A stretch of DNA of 64,000 bases from Bacteriovoracaceae bacterium (lineage in GTDB: Bacteria > Bdellovibrionota > Bacteriovoracia > Bacteriovoracales > Bacteriovoracaceae), in NCBI GenBank assembly GCA_947446575.1, contig CANFHC010000001.1, forward strand, positions 124,001-188,000. The letters run 5' to 3'. The notes beneath the pieces were generated by a model. It was given only the letters and a program-made list of their open reading frames with translations, made no database searches and had not been told where the DNA came from. Numbering within the stretch: position 1 is the stretch's first letter; the number at the start of each line of letters is the position of its first letter. Of this stretch, positions 25,657 through 32,573 are shown piece after piece. A program made the position numbers and the translations under genes.

Positions 25657-27840
25657 CTATTTAGCACTTTTAAATAATCTTGGATAACCAGATTTTTGGT
25701 AGCGATTAGAAATAAGCTCAAAGATACTTGATTGCTTATCTTGAGTGATGTCATTTTTTAAATCGTACTCATCGATTGAGGCTGAAGCTCCCGCATTTAG
25801 TGCATTGGCTGCAGCTAAGTCTTCTGCTTCTTTTTTCTCTTTTAATAAAGCTTCTTCATCGCTAGTTACTTTGGGAAGCGAGACTGCTCCTGCACCAAGA
25901 GATACTGTTCCCCCTCCACCGGCTGCTTTTTTTGCGCTTATAGCATTTTGATTAGCGTCAGGGGTTGCCTTTGTTTCATTAGATAATCCAATGGTAGAAT
26001 TTTTACCGAAAATCGCGAACATTTGACCAGCTGTCATTTTATTCTTATTTAGTTCTTTTTGAATAACTGCTCTCATGTTTGCAGAGAGCTTAGCAGAATC
26101 CTTCGCAAGATCAGTTGAGCTACCATTTGCTTTTAAAATTGCTTGAACTTGTTTTTGTCTATTAGCTAATTCTGCACGAATAGCATTGGCTTGATTTGCA
26201 ACTGTTTGAGCTTGAGAAAGTGTAGAAGCTGATAATTGACTTGTTCCATTAATTCCATCTGCCATTTTGGCAATATTTCCAATTTGCTGTTGAGCTACCT
26301 CTGGCATATTTTTTAAATCAGCTTGGGCATTTAATTTATCACTAAAAGAAGGACATTTTGAAGGATCATCTCCAGTTATACAGGGTAGGGCCTCGCCACC
26401 TTTAGCTTTTAAATCAATATCCGATCCGTTTTTTGAATTTAAACTAAGTTGAGGATTTTTTGCAATATTCTTATCAATTTTTTGATTACTTCCAGCAATA
26501 ACGTTTGCAGTGGTGACACCATTTTGAAGTGGATAAAGTTTGTTTAAAATTGCATCTATTTTATCAATGTTCGATTGAATTTTCCCAATTTCTCCATCCG
26601 TCGAGGAAGAAGCGGCATACGTTAAAGCGGCCAGTATTCCCCAAGCAATCGCTCGTCTTTTTGGAATCAGTAAGTTTAGATCTAAAGTAGTCGCCAATGA
26701 AACATTGGCAGCTAATATAAATTTAATCGCTAGTCCTGAAGCTATTCCCATTGGACTGAATAAATCTGCACGAACTTCTGGAATAAAAAAGTTAAGAGTT
26801 TTTTCCATGAAGGATTTATTTTCCTTTGCTTCAGCATAAATCTTGCGTTCTAATTTTGGGAAAAGTATTTTTTGAATATTTGGGTATTGGTTGAATTGAG
26901 CATATAAAGTAGCAGATGTTCCAAATGAAGAATCTAAAACATCGTTAACTGCTTTTAATGGACATGTACCACCATTTTCTGCTGCTAATTGTCCTGATCC
27001 ATAGGGCGTACACGGACCAGCGCTGGCCGGAAAAGAGGATTCAATTGTTGATGCTAGTGATGATGTTGTTGAAAAACCAGCTGCAGATGGAGATGGCGCT
27101 TCACGAGCAGAAATATAACTAGTCATTGTAGACATATCTGCTGCGATTTTTGCTTTACACGCATTTGCTCCAGCATTACAAAGTTGTAATTGAGCATTAC
27201 ATGCATTTAGACAAGCAGCTGCATGAGGTCCAGTACAGGCCGGAGTACACATTCCAAACGCAGCTGTACATTTCCCCATATCAGCCGAGTAACCAGCAGA
27301 AGACGCTGTTTGTAATCCCAGTAAGCATTGAGCTTGCTGAGTTTCTTCGGTTGCTGTCATTATGTAAGCTGAAATACCTGCAGCAGCAAATGCAGCGGCA
27401 GCTGCCATCTGAAGCATCTTTTTTGTATTGGCCGTCTCCATTGCAGCTTCATATGATTTTTTTAACTTTTCTAAAGTTTCAATTTGCTTTTGATCAATAT
27501 TTCCTTTTTCATCTCGAGTGATTTGGGTTTCTAAATCTTTCATCACTTCTTTGTTTTTAAAGACAGCTAAAATATCGCCTACAATATAAGCGGCTCCCCC
27601 GGCAGCGGCCAACATTATATCTGTGGTCATTTTATATCTATAAAGTCTCGAAGCGAGTAAGCCGACAGCAGTCATCGTCAAAGTCGCCATCATGTTGTTG
27701 CCACCAACTCCCTCTGTTGTGAGTGTTTCAGCTCGCGCTGAATTAAACTGAACGATTGCTCCTTTATAGCTGAAATCCAGCAAAAGCAATGAGCCTGAAA
27801 GTAGTGACACCACAAGTGTCTTATAAAGTAATTTCAACAT
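25657..27840 (-). CDS. Tandem paralogue A: large Ala/Ser-rich exported membrane protein, unknown
   Basis: 727 residues from ATG 27840 (AGAGG 5 nt upstream). Layout: hydrophobic N-terminus LLYKTLVVSLLSGSL, hydrophobic spans about 50-70 and 78-98, a charged helix (about 100-140), another span (about 145-165), then a Cys-rich loop (about nine Cys between 170 and 235). Further hydrophobic segments lie near 365-420, then a long coiled, Gln/Asn/Ala-rich region, a charged tail and the C-terminal block SIFELISNRYQKSGYPRLF. It is paralogous to the next gene upstream over its N-terminus, middle and C-terminus. No known domain. Confidence 0.8.
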   Translation of the reverse strand: MLKLLYKTLVVSLLSGSLLLLDFSYKGAIVQFNSARAETLTTEGVGGNNMMATLTMTAVGLLASRLYRYKMTTDIMLAAAGGAAYIVGDILAVFKNKEVMKDLETQITRDEKGNIDQKQIETLEKLKKSYEAAMETANTKKMLQMAAAAAFAAAGISAYIMTATEETQQAQCLLGLQTASSAGYSADMGKCTAAFGMCTPACTGPHAAACLNACNAQLQLCNAGANACKAKIAADMSTMTSYISAREAPSPSAAGFSTTSSLASTIESSFPASAGPCTPYGSGQLAAENGGTCPLKAVNDVLDSSFGTSATLYAQFNQYPNIQKILFPKLERKIYAEAKENKSFMEKTLNFFIPEVRADLFSPMGIASGLAIKFILAANVSLATTLDLNLLIPKRRAIAWGILAALTYAASSSTDGEIGKIQSNIDKIDAILNKLYPLQNGVTTANVIAGSNQKIDKNIAKNPQLSLNSKNGSDIDLKAKGGEALPCITGDDPSKCPSFSDKLNAQADLKNMPEVAQQQIGNIAKMADGINGTSQLSASTLSQAQTVANQANAIRAELANRQKQVQAILKANGSSTDLAKDSAKLSANMRAVIQKELNKNKMTAGQMFAIFGKNSTIGLSNETKATPDANQNAISAKKAAGGGGTVSLGAGAVSLPKVTSDEEALLKEKKEAEDLAAANALNAGASASIDEYDLKNDITQDKQSSIFELISNRYQKSGYPRLFKSAK

Positions 27841-27865
27841 ACGTGCCTCTTTGTTCACCAAAAAA

Positions 27866-29989
27866 CTATTTCTTAACTGGCAATGGAATTTCTTCTAATA
27901 ATCTAGGATAGCCCGATTTAATATAACGATTCGAGATAACCTGAAAAATCGAATCACCACTATTAGTATTAATATCGTTTTCACCGATATCATATTTTAA
28001 GTCTTTCTCTTTAGCGGCAGCAGCTGCTGCACCAGCTTCACCACGCGCAGCACCTTCAGCTTGAGTTTCCTTGAAATTAAAATCTAAATCTTTTTCTTTT
28101 TTTGCTTCAGCAGCTTTGGGAACATCTCCACCAAGATTAACGGATTTTTTTCCACTAGGAATTTTAGCGATCGCAACTTTAGCGTTATCAATTGCGCTCA
28201 CTCCTGTGCTCGCAAGAAATGATCCTGCTGACATTCCACTTCCAGATAATGCTTTTGCCGTTTGTATTTTCATTTGACCTAATAATTTACTTTCTTCTTT
28301 ATCATAATCAATTTTAGGACTTCCATTTTTAGCTAACATATCATTAAGTTTTGATTTCACACTGGCAGCTAATCGCCCAATGGAATTTTTGTTATTCGCT
28401 AACGCTCCGGCTGCAGTTAATGCAGAACCTGATAGAGAGTTTGTTCCACTTAATCCATCACCTAAACTAGCCGCTTGAGTAGCAACTGTTTTGAACGAGT
28501 CTGGAAGATCCGCAAATCCTGGCATTGCTTTCATTTGGCTAGCAAGCGGAGTGCAATTGTTTGATCCACTACTTGTTAAACAATCTGTTTTAACTGCTGC
28601 ATTTGAATTAAGCTTTAGGGCCGCTTGTTGATTAGCTTGAAGAGCAGCAAGTTTAATTTGTTGTTCATTTACGTTGTTTGATTTTATTCCTTTTTGAAGA
28701 TTGTTTAAATCTTTGAGAATTTTGTCTATGTCGGCGATGTGTTTATCGACATCTTCGATTGCAGATTGCGAAGCTTGTGCTCCTAAAAAAGCAGCTCCGG
28801 CCATAATTCCCCAAGCAATAATTCTTCCGCCGGGAGTAAACATATAAGAGTCGACTATTTGATCGATTTTTAATTGAACTGCAAAAAAAGCTGTCGCTGC
28901 TCCTGCGCCTAAACCTAACATTGCTAACATTCCAGCCTCAGCTCTTGGAAGAATTGTGTCGAGCATTTTCTGCAATAAACTTCGTTGTGAATAATTTGAA
29001 GCAACACTCATCTTTTCTTCTATATGTGTTGATATTTTTGCCATAAACATTTTTTCTAATCCAGGAATTACAAATTTCTCATTTGCACTAACAAATGATT
29101 TTCCAAATGCTCCATTTATTTGTTTCTTTACTAAATAAGTTGAACAAGAAGTTTTGACCATTGAATCTTTAATTGCTTCAGCAGTAGGACCTGCACATGG
29201 AGTCGCTACTTGGGCTGCATTGGCTTTATCAACAGGCTCAGACCCGGTTGCTTTTGCTAGTGAAGGTCCAGGTATTTCACTATTAGCTTTTGCAGTTGTT
29301 AATGAAGTTGCTAAGTGGGCTAGCGAAGCTTGGCAAGCCGAGCACAATGGTCCATCAGTAGGTGATGCCGCACAGGTTGAAAGAGATGCAGTGGCATTTG
29401 TAATACCAGCCTGGCAACTTGCCAATTGCCCATCTTCATCTAACCTAGCATAAGCCGCCATTCCCGCAGCGCCAGTAAAAATAACGGCCGCTGCAATTTG
29501 AAGCGTTTTTCTCGTTTTTAATGATTCCTTAACTTTCTCATATGATTCTTTCAATTTTTGAAGAGTATCAATTTGAGCTTGATCAATTTGACCATTACTC
29601 TTTTTTGTCACTTGAACATTCATGTCTTCAATTTGATTTTTTAAATTCATAACGTTGACGATTTCAGCAGCAATATAAGCCGCACTACCTGCTGCTGCAA
29701 TCGACATATCTGTAGTCCACTTTTTGTACATCAATAAGCGTGTACCGATAAAGCCAACTGCCAACATTGTTATCGTATGAAGAGCATTATCCTCCCCCGC
29801 TTTAGTTCCTTGAAAATTATGATTCTCAGTCTTTGAGAACACGCCATTTGAATCTCGCGTATAACCTGTTGCTGACGCTTGAGTCGTTGCAGTTGATGCT
29901 GTATCTTGAGCAAAGGCCAGCATATTCATAATTGATAACGAGCCTGAAATGACTGATATCAAAAGTGTCTTGTATAATAATTGAAACAT
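27866..29989 (-). CDS. Tandem paralogue B: large exported membrane protein, unknown
   Basis: 707 residues; ATG 29989 preferred since GGTGGG precedes it. Same architecture as paralogue A: FQLLYKTLLISVISGSLS N-terminus, hydrophobic spans (about 60-80, 85-105, 150-170), Cys-rich loop (about 178-225), more hydrophobic segments near 355-420, a Gln/Asn/Ala-rich helical region, and the end SIFQVISNRYIKSGYPRLL. Shared middle stretch: IDQ-x-QI-x-TL-x-KLK-x-SYE. Stop-to-start distance to paralogue A is about 25 nt, so they are one operon and probably partners. Function unknown. Confidence 0.8.
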   Translation of the reverse strand: MFQLLYKTLLISVISGSLSIMNMLAFAQDTASTATTQASATGYTRDSNGVFSKTENHNFQGTKAGEDNALHTITMLAVGFIGTRLLMYKKWTTDMSIAAAGSAAYIAAEIVNVMNLKNQIEDMNVQVTKKSNGQIDQAQIDTLQKLKESYEKVKESLKTRKTLQIAAAVIFTGAAGMAAYARLDEDGQLASCQAGITNATASLSTCAASPTDGPLCSACQASLAHLATSLTTAKANSEIPGPSLAKATGSEPVDKANAAQVATPCAGPTAEAIKDSMVKTSCSTYLVKKQINGAFGKSFVSANEKFVIPGLEKMFMAKISTHIEEKMSVASNYSQRSLLQKMLDTILPRAEAGMLAMLGLGAGAATAFFAVQLKIDQIVDSYMFTPGGRIIAWGIMAGAAFLGAQASQSAIEDVDKHIADIDKILKDLNNLQKGIKSNNVNEQQIKLAALQANQQAALKLNSNAAVKTDCLTSSGSNNCTPLASQMKAMPGFADLPDSFKTVATQAASLGDGLSGTNSLSGSALTAAGALANNKNSIGRLAASVKSKLNDMLAKNGSPKIDYDKEESKLLGQMKIQTAKALSGSGMSAGSFLASTGVSAIDNAKVAIAKIPSGKKSVNLGGDVPKAAEAKKEKDLDFNFKETQAEGAARGEAGAAAAAAKEKDLKYDIGENDINTNSGDSIFQVISNRYIKSGYPRLLEEIPLPVKK

Positions 29990-30140
29990 AGAACTACCCA
30001 CCATAATGTTTAAATCTATTTTACATTATAATTGGTTAAGCTCTTAAAAGATGGAAGGAAAGAATGACCGTTCTGAAGAGTTTCCGTCGGATATCTTAAT
30101 AAGGACCAAGTAAAAGAGTGCCAATAAAACTGGTCGAAAC

Positions 30141-30917
30141 CTAGCCTTTAAATACAATTCGATTGGTGCCCCATTTTTTAGACTTTGCCCGATCAGATTT
30201 CTTAGTATAGCCATCTTTGCTTTTTCGGTAAGAAGGCAAAGTTGTATCGAGTGCGCATTTAATCTGAAAGTCGACCATCGCTTTAAATACCTCAAGCATA
30301 TTGTCTTGTTGGTTTCCTAAATTTTCGATTCCTCGTCTATCACATTCGCTTAAGAAAAACTGGATCGATTCAATTGTCGAAAGGCAATATTTGGCAGGTT
30401 GCTCTTTTATGACAAAAACAGATTCGTGAGAGGCCGTGAAAGAAACGCGATCTAGAGTATGCAAGTTTTTTGAAAGCCGCATCATCTTCTTAGCGCAAGG
30501 CCATGTCCCATCGATTAAAAAAATAACAAGTCGTTTTCCACCCAGGTTTTTCATCGGAGTTATATCATCACTAGAAATATTAAGTGAGCGCTCCCCTGGA
30601 TATAAAATCATACAATAATTTTTTGGATCATTAATTAGATTATTAACAGCAACATCTTCGGTGAAATCAATTCCAATAATTAATTCTGAATTTTTTAAGC
30701 AGGCTAGACTTATTCGTCCCGTTCCTGTTTTTTCTTTTTTGGCTTCCATTGGATGCATTAGCAAAACAAAATGAGCTTTGGATTCAAAAGGTTTAATCAT
30801 ATGACAAAGGCAATTGTTTTGCACTCGTGCACACTGAAAACACATGGCTTCACGCTTATATTTAACAGCACTCTCAATTTGTTCCTGCTTTTTTAAAAGA
30901 TAGGTTGCTTTATCCAT
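30141..30917 (-). CDS. DTW-domain protein, tRNA acp3U-type aminocarboxypropyltransferase homologue
   Basis: 258 residues. N-terminal Cys cluster C26-x-x-C29 ... C36-x-C38, then the DTW domain with MHPMEAKKEKTGTGR, a hydrophobic core and the name-giving motif D-G-T-W-P-C-A-K-K-M (about 145). The C-terminal STIES-like segment is also present. Known bacterial DTW proteins (TapT/YfiP) transfer the 3-amino-3-carboxypropyl group of S-adenosylmethionine to tRNA uridine. The start lies 2 nt after the ArsC-like stop, so they are co-transcribed. Confidence 0.85.
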   Translation of the reverse strand: MDKATYLLKKQEQIESAVKYKREAMCFQCARVQNNCLCHMIKPFESKAHFVLLMHPMEAKKEKTGTGRISLACLKNSELIIGIDFTEDVAVNNLINDPKNYCMILYPGERSLNISSDDITPMKNLGGKRLVIFLIDGTWPCAKKMMRLSKNLHTLDRVSFTASHESVFVIKEQPAKYCLSTIESIQFFLSECDRRGIENLGNQQDNMLEVFKAMVDFQIKCALDTTLPSYRKSKDGYTKKSDRAKSKKWGTNRIVFKG

Positions 30918-30919
30918 TC

Positions 30920-31261
30920 TTAAAACTTTAATCCTTTATATGTTTCTTCATCAAAGCCTATAGCTATTGTTTTTTCATTTTTCTCCAAGACAGGTCGCTT
31001 TATCATGGAAGTATTTGTGCATAGAAATTTAATTTTAGCGGCTTCTGTTAATCCTTCATATTCGTCTTTTAATTTTTTATAGGTCGTCCCTTTTTTATTG
31101 ACTGGCAATTCGCCAAAAAAATCAGCCCAACGTTTAATTTGCTCTGATATTGGGGGAAGCTTTTTAAAATCAACAAATGTGTATTCCACTTGTTTCTTAT
31201 CAAGAAACAAACGAGCTTTTTTTACAGTGTCACAATTAGCAATAGCGTACATCGTAATCAT
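30920..31261 (-). CDS. ArsC/Spx-family thioredoxin-fold protein (YffB-like)
   Basis: 113 residues. Thioredoxin fold with single Cys10 in A-N-C-D-T-V-K-K-A (ArsC family CxxxxKxR-like site) and the conserved S-M-I-K-R-P-V-L near residue 85. YffB-type members are probable glutathione-dependent thiol reductases; the sequence cannot prove arsenate reduction. Start overlaps the methyltransferase stop region (TAAAATG). Confidence 0.88.
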   Translation of the reverse strand: MITMYAIANCDTVKKARLFLDKKQVEYTFVDFKKLPPISEQIKRWADFFGELPVNKKGTTYKKLKDEYEGLTEAAKIKFLCTNTSMIKRPVLEKNEKTIAIGFDEETYKGLKF

Positions 31262-31262
31262 T

Positions 31263-31883
31263 TTATTTTTTCCTGAAAATTAGTACTGATTTAGAATCGT
31301 TGAAAAGAATTTCCAAATTAAATTTTTCTGCTAAAAAGTTAAATGTCTTTTGATTGTAAAAAACAATGTGAGTCATATCGTTTTTGTACCACCATGACTT
31401 ATAATCCACATCTTCATTTAAAAAGAGTGTCATGATTGCCAATAGAGCATTTGGTTTAACTAAATTAATTAACTCTTCCCAACTTTCGGCAGGATTTTTA
31501 AAATGCTCAACCACTTCAGTTGAAGTAACTACATCATATTTTACGTTTAATAATTCTTTATCCGGATGAAAAAGTGGATCGAAATTATGAACTTTTCCAC
31601 CAAGCTTCTCCATTAAAATGGACAATGTGGGACCAGGTCCGCAGCCATAATCTAACAAAGAAAAAGAGGGTGCGAGAAATTGAGTCAACGGATTAATAAG
31701 TTGTTTTAAAAAATTAATATAACCTAAATCTTCACTATTGTTTTGATGAGTTAAATAACGTGCTAATTCTTTTTCTGTTGTAGCAAATACATTGGGATTT
31801 TTAAATACCAATCCACAATGCGAGCACTTAAAAGCATCACAAAATAGATCTGTGTCGGGAGTATGGCAAAGTAGGCAATTCAT
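31263..31883 (-). CDS. Class I SAM-dependent methyltransferase with N-terminal zinc finger
   Basis: 206 residues. N-terminal C-x-x-C...C-x-x-C (C3/C6 and C20/C23) zinc-finger-like pair, then motif I L-L-D-Y-G-C-G-P-G (about 75-83), an acidic motif II (NFDPLF), and STEVVEHFKNP (motif IV region) typical of the Methyltransf_23/11 group. Such zinc-finger-linked methyltransferases often act on sugars or small molecules. Substrate unknown. Confidence 0.85.
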   Translation of the reverse strand: MNCLLCHTPDTDLFCDAFKCSHCGLVFKNPNVFATTEKELARYLTHQNNSEDLGYINFLKQLINPLTQFLAPSFSLLDYGCGPGPTLSILMEKLGGKVHNFDPLFHPDKELLNVKYDVVTSTEVVEHFKNPAESWEELINLVKPNALLAIMTLFLNEDVDYKSWWYKNDMTHIVFYNQKTFNFLAEKFNLEILFNDSKSVLIFRKK

Positions 31884-31895
31884 TAAGAGTTGATA

Positions 31896-32573
31896 CTATA
31901 ATTCAAAGTCATTGGAAATGGATTTTTTCTTTTGGAAAATCTCTTTTTTAACACTAGATTTCAGCAATATTTTGCCCAACATAAGGGCAAGAGTTCCACT
32001 GTTATTAGAGACTTGAAATGAACCAATTATGGCCATATCTGATTGAGAGGTTTTCACTAAACGTAAAGTCTTTTTTTCATCATAACCATTTTCTGTTGAA
32101 CACTGACTTGAGTCTCCTAGTACTGCATTTGTTCTGCATACCGATGGGCGGTCTTCATATACAAGGCATAGATTATTAGATCCCAGAAAAACACATTTTC
32201 TTGATTCATATGATAGCTTATAAAAATCCTCTGATTTGTTACCGGCATTCATTTGCTTTTGCAATTGAGCTCGGTCTATCTTTAAGCCATCATTGACAAT
32301 TCTGGCGAGTAGTTCAGCTTCATCTTCCGTGATACTAACTTGGGTGTGACAACAACCTGTACATCCGGCCTTGCAGCCAGAGAGTTCTTTGACTAATGGA
32401 TGAGCAAATACTTCGCGATTAAATTCATCGACCACGTTATGGACAAATTTTGCTCGCTCGGTTGGGGATGAAATTTTTTTTAAATGCAGGATAATGAAGG
32501 CGCTAATATTCGAAAAGGCTTGTTGCCCTTTTAATAAATCGTAGGTTTGTTTAGCGATCGCGGGAAAATTCAT
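31896..32573 (-). CDS. YkgJ-family cysteine cluster protein
   Basis: 225 residues. Cys cluster C-x3-C-x2-C-C-H (CKAGCTGCCH, about 69-78), later C-V-F-L near 125 and C-L-V-Y-E-D-R-P-S-V-C-R near 135-146, the layout of YkgJ/Fe-S-cluster or zinc proteins. Biochemical role unknown. First gene of a minus-strand run with the methyltransferase, ArsC-like and DTW genes, divergent from uup. Confidence 0.85.
   Translation of the reverse strand: MNFPAIAKQTYDLLKGQQAFSNISAFIILHLKKISSPTERAKFVHNVVDEFNREVFAHPLVKELSGCKAGCTGCCHTQVSITEDEAELLARIVNDGLKIDRAQLQKQMNAGNKSEDFYKLSYESRKCVFLGSNNLCLVYEDRPSVCRTNAVLGDSSQCSTENGYDEKKTLRLVKTSQSDMAIIGSFQVSNNSGTLALMLGKILLKSSVKKEIFQKKKSISNDFEL

Follow-up and report, generated by a model that had tools for sequence, protein, structure and literature searches.

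The tandem genes P0001 and P0002 lie on the minus strand of a 64,000-nucleotide stretch (the window; contig 1, positions 124001-188000) of the 3.39-Mb genome of a Bacteriovoracaceae bacterium, and they encode two large exported proteins of no known family. P0002, the first gene of the pair (27866..29989), encodes 707 residues from the second ATG at 29989, or 712 from an alternative ATG at 30004; a spacer of 25 bp separates it from the second gene, P0001 (25657..27840, 727 residues). As the initial annotation of the window had proposed, the two are paralogous: they align over their full length with 29% identity and 46% positives (BLASTP, 216 bits, E=1e-64). The similarity is therefore far above chance; it persists in an alignment of 30 sequences, and the three shared blocks named by that annotation, N-terminal (LLYKTL..SGSL), middle (IDQxQIxTLxKLKxSYE) and C-terminal (ISNRYxKSGYPRL), were all found. 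The last of these had been regarded as a feature of the pair. It is indeed present in both proteins, but it is not specific to their family and tags many otherwise unrelated exported proteins. In P0001 the tag reads SIFELISNRYQKSGYPRLF (25672..25728, minus strand) and in P0002 SIFQVISNRYIKSGYPRLL (27896..27952, minus strand); profile A3, which was built from the C-terminal ending, recognizes them in their own genome at E=6.2e-18 and E=1.1e-18, and AlphaFold places a helix there with low confidence (residues 706-716 and 686-696, respectively). The tail has the look of a docking tag or address label that has not been described before.

When the source genome was searched with a profile of the family, the additional matches were confined to the C-terminal end, and inspection of the proteins concerned revealed otherwise dissimilar sequences with signal-peptide N-termini and a common ending. 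The core of the tag is S-[IL]-[FW]-x-x-[IV]-[ST]-x-R-Y, and the full motif, S-[IL]-[FW]-x-[ILV]-[IV]-[ST]-x-R-Y-x-[KR]-[ST]-[GA]-[YF]-x-[KR]-L, reads as an amphipathic helix; the tag as a whole spans about 20-35 residues. In loci fetched by score and genome, not by match position, the profile matched 85 of 808 open reading frames (ORFs), and every one of these matches ends no more than 20 residues from the C-terminus, while the reversed profile and 20 column-shuffled ones (21 controls) matched none of the 808. Three core positions are invariant among the matches (Y, [FW] and [IL], each 85/85) and the arginine is nearly so (82/85), with 5-26 residues between RY and the C-terminus. A hydropathy scan of the tagged proteins detected no transmembrane-like window near this end. 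At the other end, 74 of the 81 complete tagged ORFs begin with a signal-peptide-like sequence according to a crude and permissive test, which 48% of background ORFs satisfy as well; in six of the seven failing ORFs the N-terminus resembles a signal peptide on inspection by eye. Thirteen more regions taken from the score lists again carried the tag C-terminally, on proteins of up to 2033 residues. No described C-terminal motif for this group was found in the open-access literature. At one locus (L229:2201-5824), two tagged genes stand tail to tail, their stop codons adjoining without a gap and their tag-coding ends abutting.

Seven tagged proteins are encoded in the source genome: the pair itself (C1), an 821-residue protein with a transpeptidase domain (C2), and proteins of 247 (C8), 637 (C21), and 422 and 682 residues (both C39). 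The domain in question, the L,D-transpeptidase domain YkuD_2, is N-terminal in two tagged proteins (E=9.9e-47 in L085, E=3.4e-19 in the source genome). Whereas the known domain stands alone without such a tail, these tagged forms continue beyond it for 500-600 residues and end in the tag. Elsewhere in the source genome (L102:6659-7234, contig 8), a tag-less protein of 191 residues with a signal peptide clusters with these tagged proteins; it lacks the long extension and is assigned by clustering, not by a Pfam match.

The modularity of the tag was assessed by hhalign comparisons between groups of tagged proteins, with the signal peptide and tag cut off or with the tag kept. These tag-trimmed comparisons were relied on because single-linkage clustering merged the tagged proteins too broadly. 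Without the tag, a superfamily A still coheres, comprising the pair, single-copy relatives, tandem arrays, the 414-637-residue, c63 and membrane-rich groups and L112, with the strongest links at 95-99% probability; a superfamily E (about 930-1213 residues) coheres as well, and the C21 group joins superfamily A solely through a Cys-rich stretch. Eight groups have no detectable tie to the paralog family once the tag is removed (G_247, J_L083 and others at 0.1-10%), and hhalign found no tag-free link to superfamily A for the transpeptidase-domain proteins or for those of 247, 606-682, 1105, 1418, 748, 717 and 930 residues. When the tag was restored, several groups regained 40-95% probability, aligned mostly at the C-terminus, and others remained low. 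For example, the comparison of the pair with G_247 rose from 0.1% to 93.6%, and that of G_247 with J_L083 from 0.1% to 94.6%. The transpeptidase-domain and 606-682-residue groups cluster together. A second module, approximately DPxCxC....C, lies upstream of the tag in several tagged families (for example L055, L051, L103, L102, L166). A protein that measures about 600-640 residues in other genera (L090, L093, L097) appears in the window's genus as adjacent genes for 378 and 422 residues (L033:5041-7442), of which only the second carries the tag.

The tag is spread throughout the lineage. Nearly every genome of the family is positive with profile A3, and the tag occurs in 95 of the 100 Bacteriovoracaceae genomes screened within the class at E<=1e-3, with 1-14 matches per positive genome. 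Outside the family the profile gave weak single matches only. Diverged C-terminal cores were seen on exported proteins of other Bdellovibrionota families, f12 (NIFEEISKRYQKKSAEGSVF), f8, f6, f14 and f2, and within the family g55 and G016 have diverged cores only. In at least seven of the eight genomes searched from g67, a genus that is probably Bdellovibrio, a single protein of about 325-344 residues ends in DSIFLMM[TS]RRYKVKESQ; the individual scores are weak (E ~0.08-0.2), yet it is the same protein and the same C-terminal place each time. In two Bdellovibrio-type genomes (L166:902-5744 and L167:5518-10253), a TadG-like minor-pilin gene (PF13400, E=1.2e-8), a gene for a 496-513-residue protein and the tagged gene for 325-336 residues stand in a row. 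The 496-513-residue protein has a signal peptide, is rich in Cys and Gly, and itself ends in a tag-like NWEK[IV][KR][ED]RY. One TadG-like gene scored above the cut-off in each of ten genomes. Since it lies beside tagged genes in none of six Bacteriovoracaceae genomes, the connection to Tad pili is a lead only.

For the pair itself, searches of Pfam and NCBIfam with both proteins returned sub-threshold noise only. For P0001, the protein taken to the PDB, a sequence search gave one weak match judged to be noise, and a Foldseek search with its low-confidence model gave no fold match at E<=0.001. The two proteins thus stand outside any known family, as had been supposed. The best Foldseek matches of P0001 were Umb1 and alpha-pore-forming toxins; because the TM-scores were about 0.1 and the probabilities low, a toxin is not proposed. 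Predicted signal peptides, read from the sequence, occupy 27730..27840 of P0001 (minus strand; residues 1-37, ending in A-R-A, followed by E) and 29909..29989 of P0002 (minus strand; ending in A-F-A, followed by Q), and export to the envelope, likewise part of the initial annotation, is supported. From the N- to the C-terminus, the family layout comprises the signal peptide, a helical part, C172 and C293, a PxAxA block, two weakly hydrophobic segments, the paired cysteines C487 and C496, a stretch of helix, a linker that is disordered (about 609-701) and the terminal helix. The AlphaFold models of both proteins are almost wholly helical, at a low confidence (mean predicted local distance difference test, pLDDT, of 57.5 for P0001 and 55.4 for P0002).

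Two of the annotated features were only partly retained. Conserved cysteines exist, but the described Cys-rich loops reduce to four well-conserved columns in the 30-row alignment (C172 28/30, C293 25/30, C487 28/30, C496 27/30). Of the several membrane segments, Ala-rich hydrophobic stretches are present, but with a family-mean Kyte-Doolittle value of about 0.8-1.1 they are marginal, and their number and topology are therefore uncertain; for P0001 and P0002, assigning the topology by hydrophobicity and the positive-inside rule gave contradictory results. Midway in the family, at 351-358, lies the block [LIF]3-P-x-A-x-A, in which three hydrophobic residues directly precede the PxAxA sequence (A358 29/30, A356 25/30, P354 23/30 among aligned relatives). 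It corresponds to P-x-[AV]-x-A in P0001 (P354-A358, 26767..26781, minus strand) and to the aligned P-R-A-E-A in P0002 (28934..28948, minus strand). It resembles an internal signal-peptidase-I site, cleavage at which could divide each protein into two.

The close relatives of the source genome, as identified with a genus-only alignment, are Bacteriovorax sp. and Bacteriovoracaceae metagenome-assembled genomes. A search of 57 related genomes at E<=0.001 detected relatives of P0001 in 23, every one of them in the same family. Wherever contigs of the genus span the locus, as they do in nine genomes (G000, G001, G003, G005, G008, G009, G010, G011 and G013), the two genes are neighbors. This count leaves aside G002, G004, G006 and G012, in which contigs are broken or other paralogs were hit, and G007, which gave no match. 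In the tree, the P0001-type (support 0.997) and P0002-type (1.000) sequences form sister clades (0.981), with G010a outside both at weak support. Hence the pair stems from a single duplication within a Bacteriovoracaceae genus, in line with the tandem duplication and divergence suggested earlier. Upstream lies a conserved cluster (30141..32573, minus strand) that, by Pfam and gene order, marks the ancestral locus. It contains genes for a CxxCxxCC protein (31896-32573), a methyltransferase (31263-31883), a 113-residue protein (30920-31261) and a DTW-domain protein (30141-30917), all on the minus strand and, in most genus genomes, in this order and followed by the pair. The cluster adjoins a pair of family genes or a single one in G001, G003, G005, G008, G009, G011, G015, G023 and G025; in G015, G023 and G025, which belong to other genera, the family gene is single. 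Two further genomes of other genera, G029 and G034, hold three or four tandem family copies at a different locus. At two loci (L042:4505-8807 and L043:6887-10914), family members that have lost the tag and end in KLRGY adjoin a signal-peptide protein of 685-709 residues, which bears the variant tag DSLF[DG][VI][VI]TKAYIRNYEKV.

Among known systems, the tag is similar to LPXTG, PEP-CTERM, GlyGly-CTERM and MYXO-CTERM in that unrelated signal-peptide proteins, from several to many in a genome and across a whole lineage, share a short homology at their extreme C-terminus. In tripartite CTERM tags, the signature motif is accompanied by a transmembrane helix and a cytoplasmic tail of basic character (PMC11980579). 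In contrast, the tag described here lacks this combination of transmembrane helix and basic cluster and reads as an amphipathic helix, and the curated NCBIfam CTERM models matched neither the pair nor ten other tagged proteins. Because the transmembrane helix is absent, the tag falls outside the tripartite class; the most economical reading is that it works like the known C-terminal sorting tags without being a member of that class. Cargo of type IX secretion is also comparable: these large multi-domain proteins likewise begin with a signal peptide and carry a second signal C-terminally. The type IX C-terminal domain is, however, a folded beta-domain of about 70-80 residues, whereas the tag is shorter and is predicted, with low confidence, to be a short helix instead of a beta-sandwich. 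No match to the SprA translocon was obtained in four genomes, in a search whose positive control gave no signal. An outer-membrane beta-barrel with a C-terminal beta-signal does not fit the almost wholly helical, low-confidence predictions. The closest mechanistic analogue may be the secretin S-domain, where a pilotin lipoprotein of the periplasm binds a short amphipathic helix at the C-terminus; that helix serves the secretin only, while the tag occurs on many unrelated proteins.

Taken with moderate confidence, the reading we favor is that a helical, non-transmembrane tag serves to dock or sort exported proteins by way of a partner in the envelope that they share. The analysis establishes the motif, where it sits, its occurrence on unrelated exported proteins and its reach across the lineage; binding through the helix, a receptor, a common destination and internal cleavage are inferred. 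P0001 and P0002 would be made with a signal peptide and moved across the inner membrane, beyond which disulfides probably form; the internal PxAxA site may then be cut. The long disordered linker would present the C-terminal amphipathic helix to one extracytoplasmic partner, which would bind it and gather unrelated proteins (L,D-transpeptidase-type, helical, very large) at one envelope site, with a possible effect on their function. Alternatively, the partner may pass the tagged proteins on for surface delivery. Several points weigh against this reading. If five hydrophobic segments are counted downstream of a cleaved signal peptide, the tail of P0001 and P0002 would lie in the cytoplasm; the conserved Cys pairs and the existence of tagged proteins that are soluble speak for a tail on the outside. 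The structure models are of the low confidence given above. Superfamily A, superfamily E, and the transpeptidase-type proteins taken together with the 606-682-residue group are each internally homologous, so the tag was acquired independently fewer times than there are tagged proteins. In addition, neither a receptor nor a dedicated enzyme was identified, no wholly tag-free genome usable for profiling was found, and the tag might instead serve folding or oligomerization as a conserved element.

The block might also be the best-conserved remnant of one ancient family whose upstream parts are homologous but have diverged past detection. Superfamily A is broader than BLAST indicates, with tag-free links joining the pair, the single-copy, 414-637-residue and c63 proteins and the membrane-rich ones, and the Cys module recurs across several groups. 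Yet the YkuD_2-domain proteins and those of 247, 1105, 1418, 748, 717 and 930 residues remain unlinked to superfamily A without the tag. YkuD_2, moreover, is a known enzyme fold, and a related protein encoded in the same genome appears to carry it without the tag; the transpeptidase-domain proteins already go part of the way to showing unrelated folds upstream of the tag. Common ancestry of this kind therefore seems quite improbable to us. That P0001 and P0002 form a genus-specific two-subunit envelope complex, with the shared C-terminus as a mere dimerization element, was close to the initial annotation. One duplication, the retention of both copies and their constant adjacency in the genus speak for such a complex; the same C-terminal block on unrelated proteins and the one, three or four copies in other genera speak against it. 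The data neither require a two-subunit system nor exclude one, and we give this explanation very little likelihood.

It is somewhat less unlikely, though still improbable, that the tag is a secretion signal, with periplasmic export followed by outer-membrane passage. The system responsible would recognize the C-terminal helix and might deliver the proteins onto prey or into it. Cargo of type IX secretion and MYXO-CTERM cargo (PMC11980579 for the latter) have such a layout, in which a signal peptide is combined with a C-terminal tag. In the two Bdellovibrio-type genomes, the sole tagged gene lies downstream of the TadG-like gene and the gene for the 496-513-residue protein, and TadG-like proteins are predicted pilus tips in predators (PMC12075869). 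Against this stand the separation of the TadG-like gene from tagged genes in six Bacteriovoracaceae genomes, the SprA search without a match (itself lacking a positive control) and the strongly hydrophobic segments of several tagged proteins, which are therefore expected to remain in the inner membrane. Docking or sorting through a shared partner could also be extended to a pathway common to the Bdellovibrionota, in which a putative dedicated receptor reads the tag (core S-[IL]-F-x-x-[IV]-[ST]-x-R-Y) and delivers its bearers to the cell surface, to the invasive pole or to prey; the pair would then be two of seven clients in its own genome. We put this forward as a tentative and rather doubtful extension.

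The Bacteriovorax-type lineage is known for bacterial predators, and from taxonomy we take the source bacteria to share this habit. Known predators of the phylum have to position enzymes and adhesins with precision, both in prey and in their own envelope, and many of the proteins that they export belong to no known family. The tag provides a sequence handle on this otherwise featureless exportome. By marking 1-14 exported proteins per genome, it points to candidate clients, among them proteins with an L,D-transpeptidase domain, which belong to a class known for cell-wall modification, and it makes the search for a receptor directly testable.

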